From: an uncultured Bacteroidota bacterium
GTDB lineage: Bacteria > Bacteroidota > Bacteroidia > Flavobacteriales_F > PHOS-HE28
Length of the DNA: 64,000 nt
Direction of reading: 5' to 3'
Assembly: GCA_902826215.1 (NCBI GenBank)
Contig: CADEDY010000004.1
Span: 1-64,000, forward strand
The position numbers were made by a program, and so were the translations under genes. The notes below the pieces were generated by a model. It was not told where the DNA came from. It saw only the letters and a list, made by a program, of their open reading frames with translations, and did not search any database. Position 1 is the first letter of the stretch. Each line of letters begins with the position of its first letter. This document shows positions 3,333 to 31,879 of the stretch, one piece after another.

Positions 3333-4187
3333 TCAAGGAACCACCACGCGCCGGGTGAATGACCCCTTCGCCGAATTCGCTTGTAGAAAGAGAAGTTGCC
3401 CATGCCGATCGGCTGTGGAGAAGGACCAAGAAGCGTTGGCTTGGCCGGGAACGTTCTGCTGAAGCACCAAGGCGCCGTCTGCAGCGAACACCGAAAAGCT
3501 GACAGAGCCACTCACGGAAGCGCCCATGAACACCATCAGTTCGCTACCATCCGCCGAAGGCCGCACGGTGAAGGAAGTACCTGCATCGATGGAGGCGACG
3601 CTGGCAACGAGCACACAATTCACAGAGTCAAGAACATTCGCTGTTCCCGGTGAAGGGCAGCCGACCACAAAGTCCGCATTGTTGTCGTTGGTATCGTTGC
3701 CATCGGGCCAACGGTTGAGGCTGATGCCGTCCTGATCGTTGGTGTCGGTCGCAGTGGTACCGGTTCCTTCCACATAGCCCGGAAGTGTTCCGCCGTAGCT
3801 CAACACATCCACGACGTTGTCGTTCACGTCGACTAGAACGATCGCATCCATGGGCCCATTCTGCACGAGGTTCGTGATCGATGGTCCTGGGTGATCGCAA
3901 TTCAGCGTGAGCGATTGGTTCCCACAGATGACGAAGTAAGCCCCGGGGGCTAACGGCTGCCACGATGGGTTGGAGATCGATGCGTACTGCACACCCGTAC
4001 CGCTGCTGCCATTGATCAGCAACACCGTAAGGTATTGCATGGGATACACCGTGGTCCCGATGTTCTTGATCTCGATGTATTCGGCATTGTCCGTTCCGAT
4101 CTGGTCGTAGTCGACCTCGTTGATCACCACTTGAGCGCTGGCGTTCAAGGTGATAAGCGTAACGACGAAGGGTAGAGCTTGACGCAT
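3333..4187 (-). CDS. Secreted lamin-tail-domain protein
   Basis: 284 residues. A signal peptide (MRQALPFVVTLITLNASAQ) is followed immediately by a lamin tail domain (VVINEVDYDQIGTDNAEYIEIKN ... GAYFVICGNQ), common in secreted Bacteroidota proteins and probably used for binding. The last ~80 residues (VASIDAGTSFTVRP ... VFAADGALVLQQNVPG ... RRVVVP) form a degenerate type A T9SS sorting domain, so export across the outer membrane is likely. The start is set by the signal peptide and by a clean promoter box 19 nt upstream. Confidence 0.8.
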   Translation of the reverse strand: MRQALPFVVTLITLNASAQVVINEVDYDQIGTDNAEYIEIKNIGTTVYPMQYLTVLLINGSSGTGVQYASISNPSWQPLAPGAYFVICGNQSLTLNCDHPGPSITNLVQNGPMDAIVLVDVNDNVVDVLSYGGTLPGYVEGTGTTATDTNDQDGISLNRWPDGNDTNDNNADFVVGCPSPGTANVLDSVNCVLVASVASIDAGTSFTVRPSADGSELMVFMGASVSGSVSFSVFAADGALVLQQNVPGQANASWSFSTADRHGQLLFLQANSAKGSFTRRVVVP

Positions 4188-4213: not shown

Positions 4214-4276
4214 GGTAGTTCCAAGAATATTCCAGTGTGAAGTGATCCGATCGCCATCCGAGGCGCGTACATAACC

Positions 4277-4729
4277 ATGACAAACCCAATGACTACCATG
4301 AGCAAGCTGAAACGAACCCTCTTGATCGCGTTGGGAAGCCTGGTGCTTCTTTTCGGAGTTCTGGTGTGGCATGTACACTTGGTGACCCGACCGAAACCGA
4401 CCGCCCACCTTGCCAACATCCAATTGGCCCGGATCGATTTCCTGGAGCCTTTGTCGTACCCGGAAGCCAGTACGATCCGCCGTGCGATCGCGGCTCTGCC
4501 CGGTGTTCAGCACGCCCGAGTGAACCTAGAGGACCAGAACGTGGTGTATTCGTACGACCGTGCCGTTCAGGATCAGCAAGCCGTGTTCACCATGGTGAAT
4601 GACCTTTCCTCCGTGCCTTGCGCACGCTTGGTGGTAACGGCAGAAGCCGCCGCCAGCGGATGCCCGGCCATGGCGAAAGGTGATGCCCAAGATCGCCTAG
4701 GCCGCTGGATCGCTGGCCTCTTGCATTGA
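4277..4729 (+). CDS. Membrane-anchored protein with an HMA-like (ferredoxin-fold) domain
   Basis: 150 residues. Residues ~12-35 are one transmembrane helix (LLIALGSLVLLFGVLVWHVHL). Residues ~55-110 (SYPEASTIRRAIAALPGVQHARVNLEDQ-NVVYSYD...) look like a beta-alpha-beta HMA-type fold, but the CxxC metal site is absent and the only cysteines are two downstream ones. Three candidate ATGs occur at 4277, 4289 and 4298; the last gives the most compact anchor. It lies 36 bp before a truncated-globin lipoprotein gene and is likely co-transcribed. Function unknown; metal handling or protein-protein assembly are possibilities. Confidence 0.65.
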   Translation: MTNPMTTMSKLKRTLLIALGSLVLLFGVLVWHVHLVTRPKPTAHLANIQLARIDFLEPLSYPEASTIRRAIAALPGVQHARVNLEDQNVVYSYDRAVQDQQAVFTMVNDLSSVPCARLVVTAEAAASGCPAMAKGDAQDRLGRWIAGLLH

Positions 4730-4765
4730 AGGAACCGACCGAAATCAACAAACACCTCAACGACC

Positions 4766-5332
4766 ATGAACACTTTGATGAAAGCCGCCCTATGCTCAAC
4801 GCTGCTCGCAACCGCCTTTTCGGGCTGCAAGAAGGACGATGATGACCCGATGACGCCAACGCCACCGGCCCCAACGCCAACGCTCTATCAGCGTCTGGGT
4901 GGAACCACCATGGTGGGTGACCCCGCGAATCCAGGTCAGATGATCGAGCAAGGATACCTCGGCCTACGCTCCGTGGTGGATAGCACCATTTTCGTGATCG
5001 CCGGTGATGCGCAGTTGCAACCCTATTTCGCCGTCTTGCTCGCCGAAGTGGGAAGTGGCGACCTCACCGGTTTCGCAGCATTGAGCGAGAACCTGACCGA
5101 ATTCTTCGCCGTGGCCACCGGATCGCAGAACTACAACTACGACGGTTTGAACATGGTGGATGCGCACAACAGCGCGAATGCCCGCATGACCGGCTTGGTG
5201 ACGAACGCCGACTTCGACCAGTTCATCGTTGACCTGGTAGCCGGTGCAGCGCAGAACAACGTTCCCACGGACATCGTCACCGACATCGGTGCGTTGGTAG
5301 AGACCCTGCGCGACCCGATCGTGCAACAATAA
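4766..5332 (+). CDS. Lipoprotein with a group 1 truncated-haemoglobin domain
   Basis: 188 residues. The N-terminus is a lipoprotein signal (MNTLMKAALCSTLLATAFSGC, lipobox FSGC) followed by an acidic then proline-rich linker (KKDDDDPMTPTPPAPTPT). From residue ~40, TLYQRLGG is the hallmark start of truncated globins. YDGLNMVDAHN supplies a candidate proximal haem histidine, and the following helices (TNADFDQFIVDLVAGAAQNNV) fit the trHb pattern. It would sit in the periplasm or on the outer membrane rather than in the cytoplasm. A terminator follows 21 bp after the stop. Confidence 0.8.
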   Translation: MNTLMKAALCSTLLATAFSGCKKDDDDPMTPTPPAPTPTLYQRLGGTTMVGDPANPGQMIEQGYLGLRSVVDSTIFVIAGDAQLQPYFAVLLAEVGSGDLTGFAALSENLTEFFAVATGSQNYNYDGLNMVDAHNSANARMTGLVTNADFDQFIVDLVAGAAQNNVPTDIVTDIGALVETLRDPIVQQ

Positions 5333-5352
5333 TTGCTACGAGCACCCAGCAT

Positions 5353-5374
5353 GAAGCCTCCGCAAGGGGGCTTT
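5353..5374 (+). terminator. Intrinsic terminator after the globin gene
   Basis: AAGCCTCC-GCAA-GGGGGCTTT forms a short GC-rich hairpin ending in TTT, 20 bp past the globin stop. Confidence 0.6.
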
Positions 5375-5419
5375 GTGCATTCCGTGAAATGCCTCACAAC
5401 AAGAACCACATACCGTCGT

Positions 5420-6085
5420 TCAAGCCTCGAACACCAGGGAGTCGGAAGTCGCTCCCAAGTCCATGAGCATGCGGCTAAGGTCGTCCACGAATTCCTGTGG
5501 GCCGCAGAGGTAGAAGTGCTGATCGAAGTTCTGCACCAGTGCGATGAGCATTTCGCGATCGATGCGCCGCTCACGGAAACCGATGACGCGTTGACGGGTG
5601 AAGATCTTCAGGTAGCTCTTACCCAGCAGTGCTGTGAGTTCCTCGTCCATGATCACGTCGGTGGCCATGCGATTGGAATAGATGAGCTGGTCGCCCTTCA
5701 ACCGGCCCTTCCGCTTGAGATCCCGGAAGATCGAGAGGAAGGGCGTGATGCCCGCGCCTGCTGCGAAGAAGGTGCCGTTGCCTTTGTACGTTATGGTGCC
5801 GAACACCTCTCCGAGCAGCAACTGGTCGCCCTTGCGGAGCAAGGCCATCTGTTCGGTGACCCCTCCCCGTGGATAGATCTTCACGACCAGCTCCAGCGTG
5901 CGCGAGGTAGGCAGGCTCGTGAAGGTGAACGGCCGCGCTTGATCGCGCCAACCATCGCGGTCGATGGTCACCATGCACGCCTCGCCTGGCTTGAACGAGA
6001 AACCCTTGGGCTTGGAAAGCACGAAGCGCTTCACGTTGGGCGTGACGTAAACCGAACTGATGATCTTGACGAGATGGGCCGACAT
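5420..6085 (-). CDS. Flavin/NAD(P)H oxidoreductase (ferredoxin-reductase family)
   Basis: 221 residues, a stand-alone FNR-like module. The N-terminal FAD-binding barrel carries RPFTFTSLP (equivalent of the RxY(T/S) FAD motif) and GGVTEQM (flavin phosphate contact). The C-terminal nucleotide-binding half has GAGITPFLSIFRDL and YLCGPQEFVDDL. There is no iron-sulfur domain, so it probably passes electrons to a separate partner. The ATG at 6085 is set by family length and by a promoter box 6 nt upstream. The deaminase gene ends 46 bp upstream on the same strand. Confidence 0.88.
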   Translation of the reverse strand: MSAHLVKIISSVYVTPNVKRFVLSKPKGFSFKPGEACMVTIDRDGWRDQARPFTFTSLPTSRTLELVVKIYPRGGVTEQMALLRKGDQLLLGEVFGTITYKGNGTFFAAGAGITPFLSIFRDLKRKGRLKGDQLIYSNRMATDVIMDEELTALLGKSYLKIFTRQRVIGFRERRIDREMLIALVQNFDQHFYLCGPQEFVDDLSRMLMDLGATSDSLVFEA

Positions 6086-7949: not shown

Positions 7950-8122
7950 GATCGGAAGACCAAGGTAATGGCCGACAGAGATCAGGGATCGACTTTGTAA
8001 CCCGCACAAGCATTCGAACACCAAGCTTCACGAACGCCGCAGAAGCATTCCCATAGTCCACCGCTTTATGCGCTGGTGGCGAACAGTTCACCCCTACTTT
8101 CATCACTCCGAACCCTACACCC

Positions 8123-10174
8123 ATGAAACAACTCCTTACGCTACTTGTCCTATCACCTGCCTTCGCCGTGGGTCAATCCCTCGTTTACGATACGCCGCAG
8201 AACCGCACAGCACTCTTGGAGGACTTCACCGGCCTCCATTGCGGGTATTGCCCCGAAGGCCACGCGATCATGGCCGATCTCGAAGTTGCATTGACGGACC
8301 GCTTCGTTACAGTCGGCATTCACGCTGGAGATTTTGCCGTGCCATCGGGCAGTGAGCCCGACTTCCGGACGCCGGATGGAAATGCCATCGATGCGTATTT
8401 CACCATCAGCGGTTACCCAGCAGGCGTCATCAATCGCCATGTGTTCGGGGGCCTCAACGATCTGGGGCGCGGCGCGTGGGAAGGCGCAGTGAACGAGATC
8501 CTCGATCTGCCGAGCCCGGTGAACTTGGGCATGGAGAGCAGTGTCAGTGGCGACCAACTCACCGTGCGCGTGGTCGGCTTGTACACCGCAGACAGCCCAA
8601 CCGGCAGCGACTACTTCAGCGTATTCGTGAAAGAGAACCACCTCAACGGACCGCAGACCGATTACACCAACGGCAACCATGCGAACTACGACCACCTGCA
8701 TGTGCTGCGCAGTTATGTGACCGATACCTGGGGCGACGACATCGGCAACCACGTTACCGGCGATTTCGTCGAACGGACCTACACCTTCACCATCCCACCC
8801 ACTTGGAATGTTGCCAATTGCGAGGTCGTGGCCTTCATCAGCGAATACCGGAGCGAAGTGTATCAAGTGCGTGAAGTGCCCATGGACGGTGGCACCACCT
8901 TGGTGATCGGCGCACTCGAAGGCGATGCACAACCCTACCGCAGTGGAACCAATGGAACGGCCAGCACCTTCACCAGCAGCTTCGGCAACCAGATCGGTGT
9001 GGACGAGGACTATGTGGTCACCCTCACGGGCGTAGGAGCTCCAGGAACTTGGACCTCCTCCTTCACGGTGGATGGGTCAACGCCAGGCAACCCGGCTACG
9101 ATCAACATCCCAAGCGCTGGTGACGTTTCCATCGAGGTGAACGTGACCCCGGATGGCACCCCAGGCATCGGCACCTACACGCTTACCGTGACGAGTGCGA
9201 CGAATGCCAGTGCACCTGCCTTGGTCCAGCGCTTCCACGTGATCAGCGGTGTTACCGACCTCATCGTGACCAACCCACAAGCCGAAACGCACGAGCCGTT
9301 GTACATCAACGGCATGGCCGATGAACTGGGCAAAGCGGCGACCAGCCGCGCCGACTTCCTTGAGTTCAGCGATGCCGACGCGTTGGTGGGCGTGAACAAC
9401 CTCTACCTCAACATCAGCTGGACCTTCCCCAGCTACACCGATGACGTCGCCAATGCGTTGAGCACCTTCATGGACAACGGCGGCAACCTGATGATCGCCG
9501 GGCAGGACATCGGCTGGGACCAGAGCGGCGTCACTGGTGCTTATGGAACTGCGGTGACCCAAGCCTTCTACACCAACTACATGCATGCGACCTACGTGGC
9601 TGATGGTGCCTCGTCGGACAACCAAGTGAATTTCGAAGATGCGGACGCGGTCTTCGGTGCCGTGCCGAACACCACCATCATCAATGCCTTCGGTGGCAAC
9701 ACCTACCCCGACCAGATCACCCCGATCGCGCCAGCCGTGCCGATCATGCGCTACTCGGCCACCAAGATCGGTGGACTGCGCGCCCATACCTCCACCTACA
9801 AAGTGGTGTACTTCGGCATCGGACCCGAGCAGGTGGCAAGTAGCGCAGTTGCCAACCAAATGGTGCAACTGAGTCACGACTGGTTCTACGGATTGGTAAG
9901 TGTGGAGGAGTTCGACGCGGCGATGAGCGCACTCGGCCAAGCCTACCCTTCACCTGCGAACAGCATCGTGAACCTACCGGTCGGTGAACTGCAAGGCACG
10001 GCTACGTTGGAAGTGTTCGATGCCATGGGTCGTGTGGTACTTACCCAACGCGTCAACAGCGCGAGCAGCAACATTCAACTGAACGTGGAGAACTTGAACA
10101 ACGGCATGTACAGTGCCCGTTTGCGCACCGAAGCCGGGAACGGCCTTGCGCGCACATTCCAAGTGATGCATTGA
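8123..10174 (+). CDS. T9SS-exported Omp28-type protein with thioredoxin-like CxxC domain
   Basis: 683 residues. A signal peptide (MKQLLTLLVLSPAFAVGQ) precedes an Omp28-like domain whose TALLEDFTGLHCGYCPEGHA carries a thioredoxin-style CGYC motif (residues ~36-39) and a cis-proline-like ISGYPAGV. The middle has Ig-like beta strands and a long beta-rich section. The last ~80 residues (SALGQAYPSPANSIVNLP ... VFDAMGRVVLTQRV ... NGMYSARLRTEAGNG) are a canonical type A T9SS sorting domain. Likely a surface or secreted redox-active or binding protein. A perfect hairpin terminator follows. Confidence 0.88.
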   Translation: MKQLLTLLVLSPAFAVGQSLVYDTPQNRTALLEDFTGLHCGYCPEGHAIMADLEVALTDRFVTVGIHAGDFAVPSGSEPDFRTPDGNAIDAYFTISGYPAGVINRHVFGGLNDLGRGAWEGAVNEILDLPSPVNLGMESSVSGDQLTVRVVGLYTADSPTGSDYFSVFVKENHLNGPQTDYTNGNHANYDHLHVLRSYVTDTWGDDIGNHVTGDFVERTYTFTIPPTWNVANCEVVAFISEYRSEVYQVREVPMDGGTTLVIGALEGDAQPYRSGTNGTASTFTSSFGNQIGVDEDYVVTLTGVGAPGTWTSSFTVDGSTPGNPATINIPSAGDVSIEVNVTPDGTPGIGTYTLTVTSATNASAPALVQRFHVISGVTDLIVTNPQAETHEPLYINGMADELGKAATSRADFLEFSDADALVGVNNLYLNISWTFPSYTDDVANALSTFMDNGGNLMIAGQDIGWDQSGVTGAYGTAVTQAFYTNYMHATYVADGASSDNQVNFEDADAVFGAVPNTTIINAFGGNTYPDQITPIAPAVPIMRYSATKIGGLRAHTSTYKVVYFGIGPEQVASSAVANQMVQLSHDWFYGLVSVEEFDAAMSALGQAYPSPANSIVNLPVGELQGTATLEVFDAMGRVVLTQRVNSASSNIQLNVENLNNGMYSARLRTEAGNGLARTFQVMH

Positions 10175-31267: not shown

Positions 31268-31879
31268 CTACATACGATCCAGGGTCATGTCGTACTCTGT
31301 GATCATCTTGCGCATGTTGATCAGGGCATACCGCATACGGCCCAGAGCGGTGTTGATGCTCACCTCGGTGTGTTCCGAGATCTCCTTGAAGCTCATTCCA
31401 AGGTAGGTCCGCATCATCACCACTTGGCGCTGCTCGTCCGGCAAGTGATCGATCAGCTTGCGGACATCCGCATCGATCTGCACGTTCACCAATTGCTGCT
31501 CCACGTTCTTTCCAGGCTGGGCGATCGTGGCGAACACATCATGGTCCTCGTTGCTTCGCACGGTGGGCATCTTCTTGACCCTGCGGAAATGATCGATCAC
31601 CAGATTATGGGCGATGCGCATGACCCATGGCAGGAATTTGCCTTCCTCGTTGTACCTACCACTCTTCAGGGTGTTCACCACCTTGATGAAGGTATCCTGG
31701 AAGATGTCCTCGGTCAACTCCCTGTCGCGCACCAACAGGAAGATGTGGGACCATACCTTGCGTTTGTGACGACCGAGCAACCGCTCGAACGCCTTTTCGT
31801 TGCCCTTAAGATAATCGTCGACCAGTTCTTGGTCGTTGCGCACCCCTGCCTTGGCAGGACTTGAAGTCTTTGATAGCAT
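31268..31879 (-). CDS. ECF-type RNA polymerase sigma factor
   Basis: 203 residues. Region 2 is AFERLLGRHKRKVWSHIFLLVRDRELTEDIFQDTFIKVV (with the -10-recognising part in WVMRIAHNLVIDHFRR). Region 4 is LPDEQRQVVMMRTYLGMSFKEISEHTEVSINTALGRMRYALINMRK, a helix-turn-helix. There is no region 1.1 or 3, so it is an ECF/sigma-24-type factor. No anti-sigma gene is adjacent. Divergent from uvrA across a 156-bp or longer gap that shows only the uvrA promoter-like box. Confidence 0.92.
   Translation of the reverse strand: MLSKTSSPAKAGVRNDQELVDDYLKGNEKAFERLLGRHKRKVWSHIFLLVRDRELTEDIFQDTFIKVVNTLKSGRYNEEGKFLPWVMRIAHNLVIDHFRRVKKMPTVRSNEDHDVFATIAQPGKNVEQQLVNVQIDADVRKLIDHLPDEQRQVVMMRTYLGMSFKEISEHTEVSINTALGRMRYALINMRKMITEYDMTLDRM

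Follow-up and report, generated by a model that had tools for sequence, protein, structure and literature searches.

A truncated haemoglobin with a lipoprotein export signal and a membrane-anchored HMA-fold protein form a conserved gene pair in Bacteroidota with a possible role in haem handling

We describe a unit of two genes that is conserved in several families of Bacteroidota and in which the gene for a truncated haemoglobin with a lipoprotein export signal directly follows the gene for a membrane-anchored protein of the HMA fold. The pair was analysed in the window, a stretch of 64,000 nucleotides from an uncultured Bacteroidota bacterium (GenBank assembly GCA_902826215.1, contig CADEDY010000004.1, positions 1 to 64,000), and in related loci and genomes. 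It is possible, though short of probable, that the pair serves in the envelope, under ECF control, to bind or transfer haem or a tetrapyrrole, acting as a haem buffer or sink and not as an oxygenase. In the open-licence literature, the sole literature covered, we found no account of an exported lipoprotein globin paired with an HMA protein. The features of the window that bear on this reading are as follows.

3333-4187, minus strand: protein with a Lamin Tail Domain, encoded divergently to the pair; it adjoins the pair in loci L028 and L113 too
4243..4269, plus strand: ECF-type promoter-like element TGATCC-N17-CGTA, conserved in the genus alignment and lying 28 bp ahead of the probable start codon
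4298..4729, plus strand: membrane-anchored HMA-fold protein without CxxC; the reading frame is open from 4277 and residues are numbered from there
4766..5332, plus strand: lipoprotein truncated haemoglobin, group 1-like, 188 aa, with predicted lipidation site C21 and proximal His H134
4766..4849, plus strand: signal peptide, lipobox Cys21 and acidic KKDDDD of the globin, fitting the Bacteroidota lipoprotein export signal C-X-K-(D/E)2
5349..5378, plus strand: strong hairpin just 3' of the globin stop, a possible operon end (fold z -3.81)
5423-6085, minus strand: FAD/NAD protein resembling NADH oxidoreductases, encoded convergently to the globin; its occurrence in the genus is patchy and shows no link to the pair

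The globin lipoprotein and its HMA-fold partner

The globin gene encodes a signal peptide, a lipobox (AFSG followed by C21), the acidic stretch KKDDDD, a short Pro/Thr linker and about 150 further residues, in keeping with the lipoprotein and acidic-proline linker proposed by an earlier sequence-only reading of this DNA. By itself the protein matched no Pfam family at E<=1, and in a single-sequence search its match to truncated haemoglobins of solved structure was weak (E 0.011). With a profile of 36 relatives, the match to those of group 1 improved to E 3.7e-7. AlphaFold2 gave a model with a mean pLDDT of 78 (residues 1-24 below 50), which superimposed on the Paramecium truncated haemoglobin 1dlw with a Z of 14.8 over 115 residues at 2.3 A, and the best Foldseek match of the model was to HbN (E 4e-5). 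The top 17 structural matches, judged in part by their titles, are all group 1 truncated haemoglobins, HbN among them. The curated Pfam globin model PF01152 matched 0/36 family members at E<=1. It does match the bridging sequence L081 (from genome G234), and for the window's genome a match at E 8.4e-6 was obtained in one search and was absent from another. Since the profile, the AlphaFold2 model and Foldseek agree, the fold is well supported notwithstanding the silence of PF01152, which is a limit of the Pfam model rather than a biological criterion. The modelled structure thus identifies the protein as a divergent group 1 truncated haemoglobin; the sequence-only reading had staked its case on a globin fold in such a model. 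The proximal His that it had called conserved, H134, is kept in 32/32 aligned globin domains. In the tree, which carries a long-branch warning, the window-type globins form one clade (support 100/99), apart from L081, L082 and L084. A variant arrangement is seen in Belliella aquatica (L043:4878-5960), where a tandem double-globin lipoprotein has the proximal His in both domains and the HMA-fold gene still lies 5' of it.

The export signal suggests where the globin may end up. Surface lipoproteins of Capnocytophaga require the signal C-X-K-(D/E)2 (LES), and acidic variants are given for Bacteroides fragilis (SDDDD) and Flavobacterium johnsoniae (SDDFE), according to excerpts of the source (PMC5080379). 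The window globin carries CKKDD, which satisfies the C-X-K-(D/E)2 rule. At least 3 acidic residues at positions +2..+7 were found in 37/42 family members with a detected lipobox vs 6/54 other putative lipoproteins from the same loci, a contrast that may be overstated, as these 54 were picked out of mechanical ORFs by a simple regular expression and some are probably not lipoproteins. On the strength of CKKDD and of this acidic enrichment in the family, the globin is predicted to be displayed at the cell surface. The earlier statement that truncated globins are normally cytoplasmic needs qualifying more broadly: seven other group 1 truncated haemoglobins have ordinary signal peptides (by eye), and periplasmic truncated haemoglobin domains are reported from cable bacteria in the available portion of one source (PMC11976967).

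For the partner, the reading frame is open from 4277, the start assumed previously, and the likely start codon is the ATG at 4298, because close homologues align from residue 8; both reading frames otherwise lie where they had been placed. The protein scored 25.4 bits against Pfam HMA (cut-off 24.8), and just 4/35 aligned family members matched that model at E<=1. Its AlphaFold2 model has a single N-terminal helix (residues 4-37) followed by an HMA domain, which superimposed on the HMA domain of ATP7B (6a71) with a Z of 12.7 over 72 residues at 1.4 A. The metal-site CxxC occurs in 0/35 close partner rows and in 0/17 rows of a wider alignment, so the description of the partner as an HMA-like membrane protein lacking CxxC was well founded. 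Residues H32, R52, D54, C129 and P130 are invariant in the 35 rows. The Cys129-Pro130 pair near the C-terminus is present in 35/35 rows and in 17/17 rows of the wider alignment, which includes the three very divergent partners of L081, L082 and L084. These three were identified by position, by phmmer matches to each other and by the CP motif; the partner of L082 alone among them reaches the partner profile, weakly, and H32 is not kept in any of the three. A motif of just two residues, such as CP, often arises by chance and is no proof of haem binding. Cys-Pro is also a known transient haem-binding and haem-regulatory motif, as set out in extracts of a published account (PMC11442138).

The HMA fold, as found in copper chaperones, brings to mind the handling of copper or another metal, with the partner binding the metal through Cys129 together with a Met or His and the globin serving as its client or passenger. 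The absence of CxxC from all 35 and all 17 rows argues against this, as does the lack of any recognisable copper gene among the recurrent neighbours (by eye), and we regard metal handling as highly improbable.

Distribution of the pair and its neighbouring genes

The partner lies directly 5' of the globin in 41/42 GTDB loci that encode a close globin relative, many of the loci being from Flavobacterium and hence not independent. In one of them, L033, it is present as an 89-aa ORF only. The single exception, L045, begins at a contig end; its sequence is titled Candidatus Saccharibacteria, it encodes a Bacteroidota-type globin lipoprotein, and the contig is possibly misassigned. Among 395 Bacteroidota genomes taken in an even draw, 16 carry the globin, and all 16 have a partner-type gene immediately upstream, divergent in sequence in two of them (G234 and G431). 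Strong partner matches (E<=2e-15) came from 13 genomes, all within the 16 globin-positive ones, and weak partial matches (E 3.5e-5 to 5.3e-4) from five globin-negative genomes. The partner in G297 was missed by the genome-wide search and found at the locus (E 2.3e-18). The co-occurrence of the two genes across genomes, which had been put forward as a check on their association, is therefore borne out by both sets. Isolates carrying the pair include Flavobacterium aquatile, F. glycines and Belliella aquatica. The more canonical truncated haemoglobin lipoproteins L081, L082 and L084 have a partner as well; none was found beside the seven group 1 truncated haemoglobins with ordinary signal peptides (by eye).

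Within the genus of the window, the globin is present in 5/45 genomes and the partner in 6/45. The contig of the sixth partner-bearing genome ends 79 bases past the partner gene and cuts off the globin. The globin search in the genus matched 15 genomes, five of them with the globin; the other ten matches were short or weak and covered mostly the signal peptide. As the pair is found in 6/45 genomes of the genus and in 16/395 of the phylum, it is dispensable.

The pair may end at the hairpin 3' of the globin, for which 0/200 shuffled sequences were as stable. This hairpin lacks a clear T run and was missed by a terminator scan based on T runs. The neighbouring genes of the loci were read among the matches listed. 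NTF2-like, epimerase and Mfd neighbours (by eye) were considered and set aside; they look like shared Flavobacterium synteny, not generally linked to the pair. In L126 a gene for a CHRD-domain protein (8059-8499) lies directly before the HMA-globin pair.

The upstream element and ECF sigma genes

An alignment of upstream regions in the genus revealed a conserved TGATCCGATC...CGTACAT about 28 bp ahead of the partner start. Searched as TGATCCGATC-N13-CGTA with 1 mismatch allowed, it has a single match in the window, against a chance mean of 0.04. A looser pattern, A[ACT]CC-N15-18-CGTA, precedes 54/59 partner genes vs 14/509 control ORFs, the controls being mechanical ORFs; it had been defined by visual inspection of some ten loci. 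The element is absent before the partner gene in L121, L125, L126, L127 and L128. With refined starts, A[ACT]CC-N16/17-CGTA stands before 54/57 profile-found partner genes. The element is present in 45/47 loci not used in its derivation (shuffled mean 0.65, maximum 4) and in 22/24 clusters formed by upstream similarity. Its spacer is 16 in 46 loci and 17 in 8, and it lies mostly 24-39 bp from the start. The form of the element is that of ECF promoters.

Genes for an ECF sigma factor and an RskA-type anti-sigma factor lie beside or near the operon in 7/60 loci (L026, L047, L118, L120, L121, L125 and L128; Pfam on representatives), four of which had supplied search seeds. In L128 a large ORF and a fasciclin gene stand between sigma/RskA and the operon. 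Genomes with RskA have roughly one copy each (99 genomes gave 45 matches, spread over 43 of them). Of the seven RskA-linked sigma genes, those of L118 and L047 are preceded by the element and the remaining five are not. The window's genome carries its sigma/RskA locus on a different contig from the pair. There, TGATCCGATC-N13-CGTA precedes the fasciclin gene with an identical ten-base half and spacing, and an element with a spacer one base shorter precedes the DUF4331 gene. The same one-base-shorter form is found before the gene of a secreted-looking protein that adjoins a gene for a KatG-like peroxidase. The search of the genome used spacers of 10-12, outside the pair's own spacer of 13, and gave 4 matches; two of them (one inside the sigma gene, one on contig C18) have no clear target. 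Over 449 residues, the secreted-looking protein shares 61% identity with the large ORF in L128 (4354-7701), which carries the element too and lies inside the cluster of sigma, RskA, fasciclin and globin genes. The peroxidase and the secreted-looking protein themselves are at L164:1653-2978 and 2-1459, on contig C7 of the window's genome. Taken together, these promoter-like sequences lead us to infer that transcription of the pair, along with that of fasciclin and DUF4331 proteins, is driven under envelope stress by an ECF sigma factor, probably one controlled by RskA.

The proximity of ECF sigma and RskA genes in 7/60 loci could also be read the other way round, with the globin as a sensor of a gas or of haem whose signal is relayed by the HMA-fold membrane protein, the RskA anti-sigma factor being one conceivable recipient. 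An envelope sensor of haem, NO or O2 had been suggested before. A sensor is not supported by the proteins themselves, because neither globin nor partner shows a cytoplasmic output domain. Furthermore, the operon is preceded by an ECF-like element, which would be expected of an output, and 53/60 loci are without the sigma/RskA pair in the locus DNA examined. We therefore consider a sensory role very unlikely.

Two further sigma genes deserve mention. At L087:1495-3353, a group 1 truncated haemoglobin with an ordinary signal peptide has as neighbours the genes of an ECF sigma factor and of a cupin of the ChrR type, an arrangement from which ECF control of exported globins may be thought to extend past the lipoprotein pair. 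The window itself encodes an ECF sigma-like ORF at 31268-31879 (minus strand), which matches the sigma profile at E 1.1e-21, well below the RskA-linked ones.

As to the trigger, we know of no description of the purpose of this Bacteroidota ECF/anti-sigma system. In mycobacteria, SigK-RskA controls fasciclin proteins, its stimuli "remain obscure", and fasciclin genes are induced by light in Mycobacterium kansasii, as stated in parts of a published source (PMC9861118). By analogy, the light induction in M. kansasii offers a lead towards a photo-oxidative trigger, although there is no evidence for one here.

Haem context, proposed function and known systems

The chemistry of the globin can be approached through its distal pocket. 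In the alignment of 32 domains, the putative B10 column, which is Tyr in the 2 cytosolic rows, is I/V/L in 30/30 exported globin domains, and the E11 column is L/F/V in 30/30; the window globin has I75 and L110 at these positions. The E7 position is less telling, as Leu occupies it in one of the 2 cytosolic rows too. E7 and E11 were placed by alignment with 3aq5, which has sister entries titled Q46E and Q50E; we take Q46 and Q50 of this series to be E7 and E11. The alignment thus indicates a distal pocket that is apolar, unlike that of truncated haemoglobins engaged in O2 or NO chemistry, the cytosolic side of this comparison consisting of just two group 1 rows. Group 1 truncated haemoglobins with signal peptidase I-type signals (by eye) from other families of the phylum (L086-L091 and L099) are apolar at B10 and E11 too.

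The pocket bears directly on the idea of O2 or NO chemistry in the envelope. The globin would scavenge or oxidise NO or bind O2 at the surface, as do cytoplasmic group 1 truncated haemoglobins like HbN, whose fold and proximal His it shares, and in the window an NADH oxidoreductase-like FAD/NAD reductase is encoded just downstream. The signature of HbN-type NO dioxygenases (Tyr B10 with a polar E11) is nevertheless missing from 30/30 exported domains, that of the window included. The reductase gene is convergent and is found in 1/6 pair-bearing vs 26/39 other genomes of the genus, which also disposes of the notion of a flavohaemoglobin-like function split between globin and reductase. Moreover, no extracellular electron donor was seen. 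An apolar pocket disfavours O2 stabilisation and NO dioxygenation, so that O2 or NO chemistry appears unlikely; haem storage or transfer, or the binding of CO or NO, remain.

The haem link drawn in the earlier reading receives indirect support from the invariant Cys-Pro of the partner and from gene context. The gene hemA adjoins the pair in 8/60 loci (L055, L070, L073, L074, L115, L116 and L117 in one family, L123 in another); it was not found in the other 52/60, in a set in which 5 of the 60 loci span under 6 kb. In L115 the pair is located between hemH/UPF0093 and hemA-hemC-hemD-hemE (Pfam), and L116 is alike by eye; we take UPF0093 to be the HemJ family. Haem binding by the globin and transfer of haem to it from the partner are the presumed activities, with a putative role in buffering haem or tetrapyrroles under envelope or light stress.

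A surface lipoprotein with the fold of a haem protein, as predicted here, might alternatively be a hemophore, taking up haem from outside as a source of iron or of cofactor, and some TonB receptors for haem are described as using surface-anchored lipoproteins in the accessible part of a published account (PMC11442138). No TonB receptor or haem transporter was recognised (by eye) among the gene clusters present in at least 5 loci, however, and a TonB-plug-like ORF was seen near the pair in one locus, L080, among the matches listed. An ECF-type element and an inner-membrane partner without an obvious role in capture also fit poorly with a hemophore, which we judge decidedly unlikely.

Returning to the haem-buffering module, its operation can be imagined as follows. 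An ECF sigma factor would switch on the pair when the envelope is stressed. The HMA-fold protein would take haem via its Cys-Pro and, in most members, the His at the outer end of the membrane helix, and would hand it to the globin before the latter flips to the surface. Transfer would have to occur in transit, because the surface globin and the inner-membrane partner end in different compartments. Once at the surface, the globin would act as a buffer or sink, its pocket retaining the haem without promoting O2 chemistry. In its full form the proposal is of an undescribed Bacteroidota envelope-stress system, in which an ECF/RskA sigma factor induces a surface globin together with an HMA-fold protein whose metal transfer has been swapped for Cys-Pro haem transfer, and in which a chemically quiet pocket takes up haem or a photoreactive porphyrin and keeps it outside the cell. 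This complete version is doubtful, and we offer it as a speculation. If true, it would mean that a globin acts as a haem buffer outside the cell, that a metal-chaperone fold has been reused for haem, and that an output has been found for the Bacteroidota ECF/anti-sigma system.

Each component has counterparts in known systems. The mycobacterial SigK-RskA system with the fasciclin proteins MPT70/MPT83 also has fasciclin genes grouped with those of an ECF sigma factor and an RskA-type anti-sigma factor; in the present case the element is shared by DUF4331 and by the HMA-globin operon too, whereas the available text of the source has no globin on the mycobacterial side (PMC9861118). In the periplasmic pentaheme cytochromes of cable bacteria (lPHCtX), a truncated haemoglobin domain likewise lies outside the cytoplasm; there it is fused to multihaem cytochromes and has been proposed to be an oxidase, and the portion of the account at hand describes neither an HMA partner nor a lipoprotein anchor (PMC11976967). 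Group 1 truncated haemoglobins (PF01152; HbN of Mycobacterium tuberculosis and the proteins of Paramecium, Tetrahymena and Shewanella benthica) share with the window globin the truncated fold, the proximal His F8 and a GxxM before the F helix. The window globin differs from them in being a lipoprotein, in the lack of a PF01152 match in its 36 members and in its apolar B10 and E11, and its family has a 14-residue insert before helix B and an NPxxNxRM insert after the proximal His. Finally, the partner has the same HMA fold as the metallochaperones CopZ, MerP and the ATP7B domains, to the last of which (6a71) it is so close in the model; in contrast to them it is without CxxC, is anchored in the membrane by its N-terminus and carries an invariant Cys-Pro in its tail.
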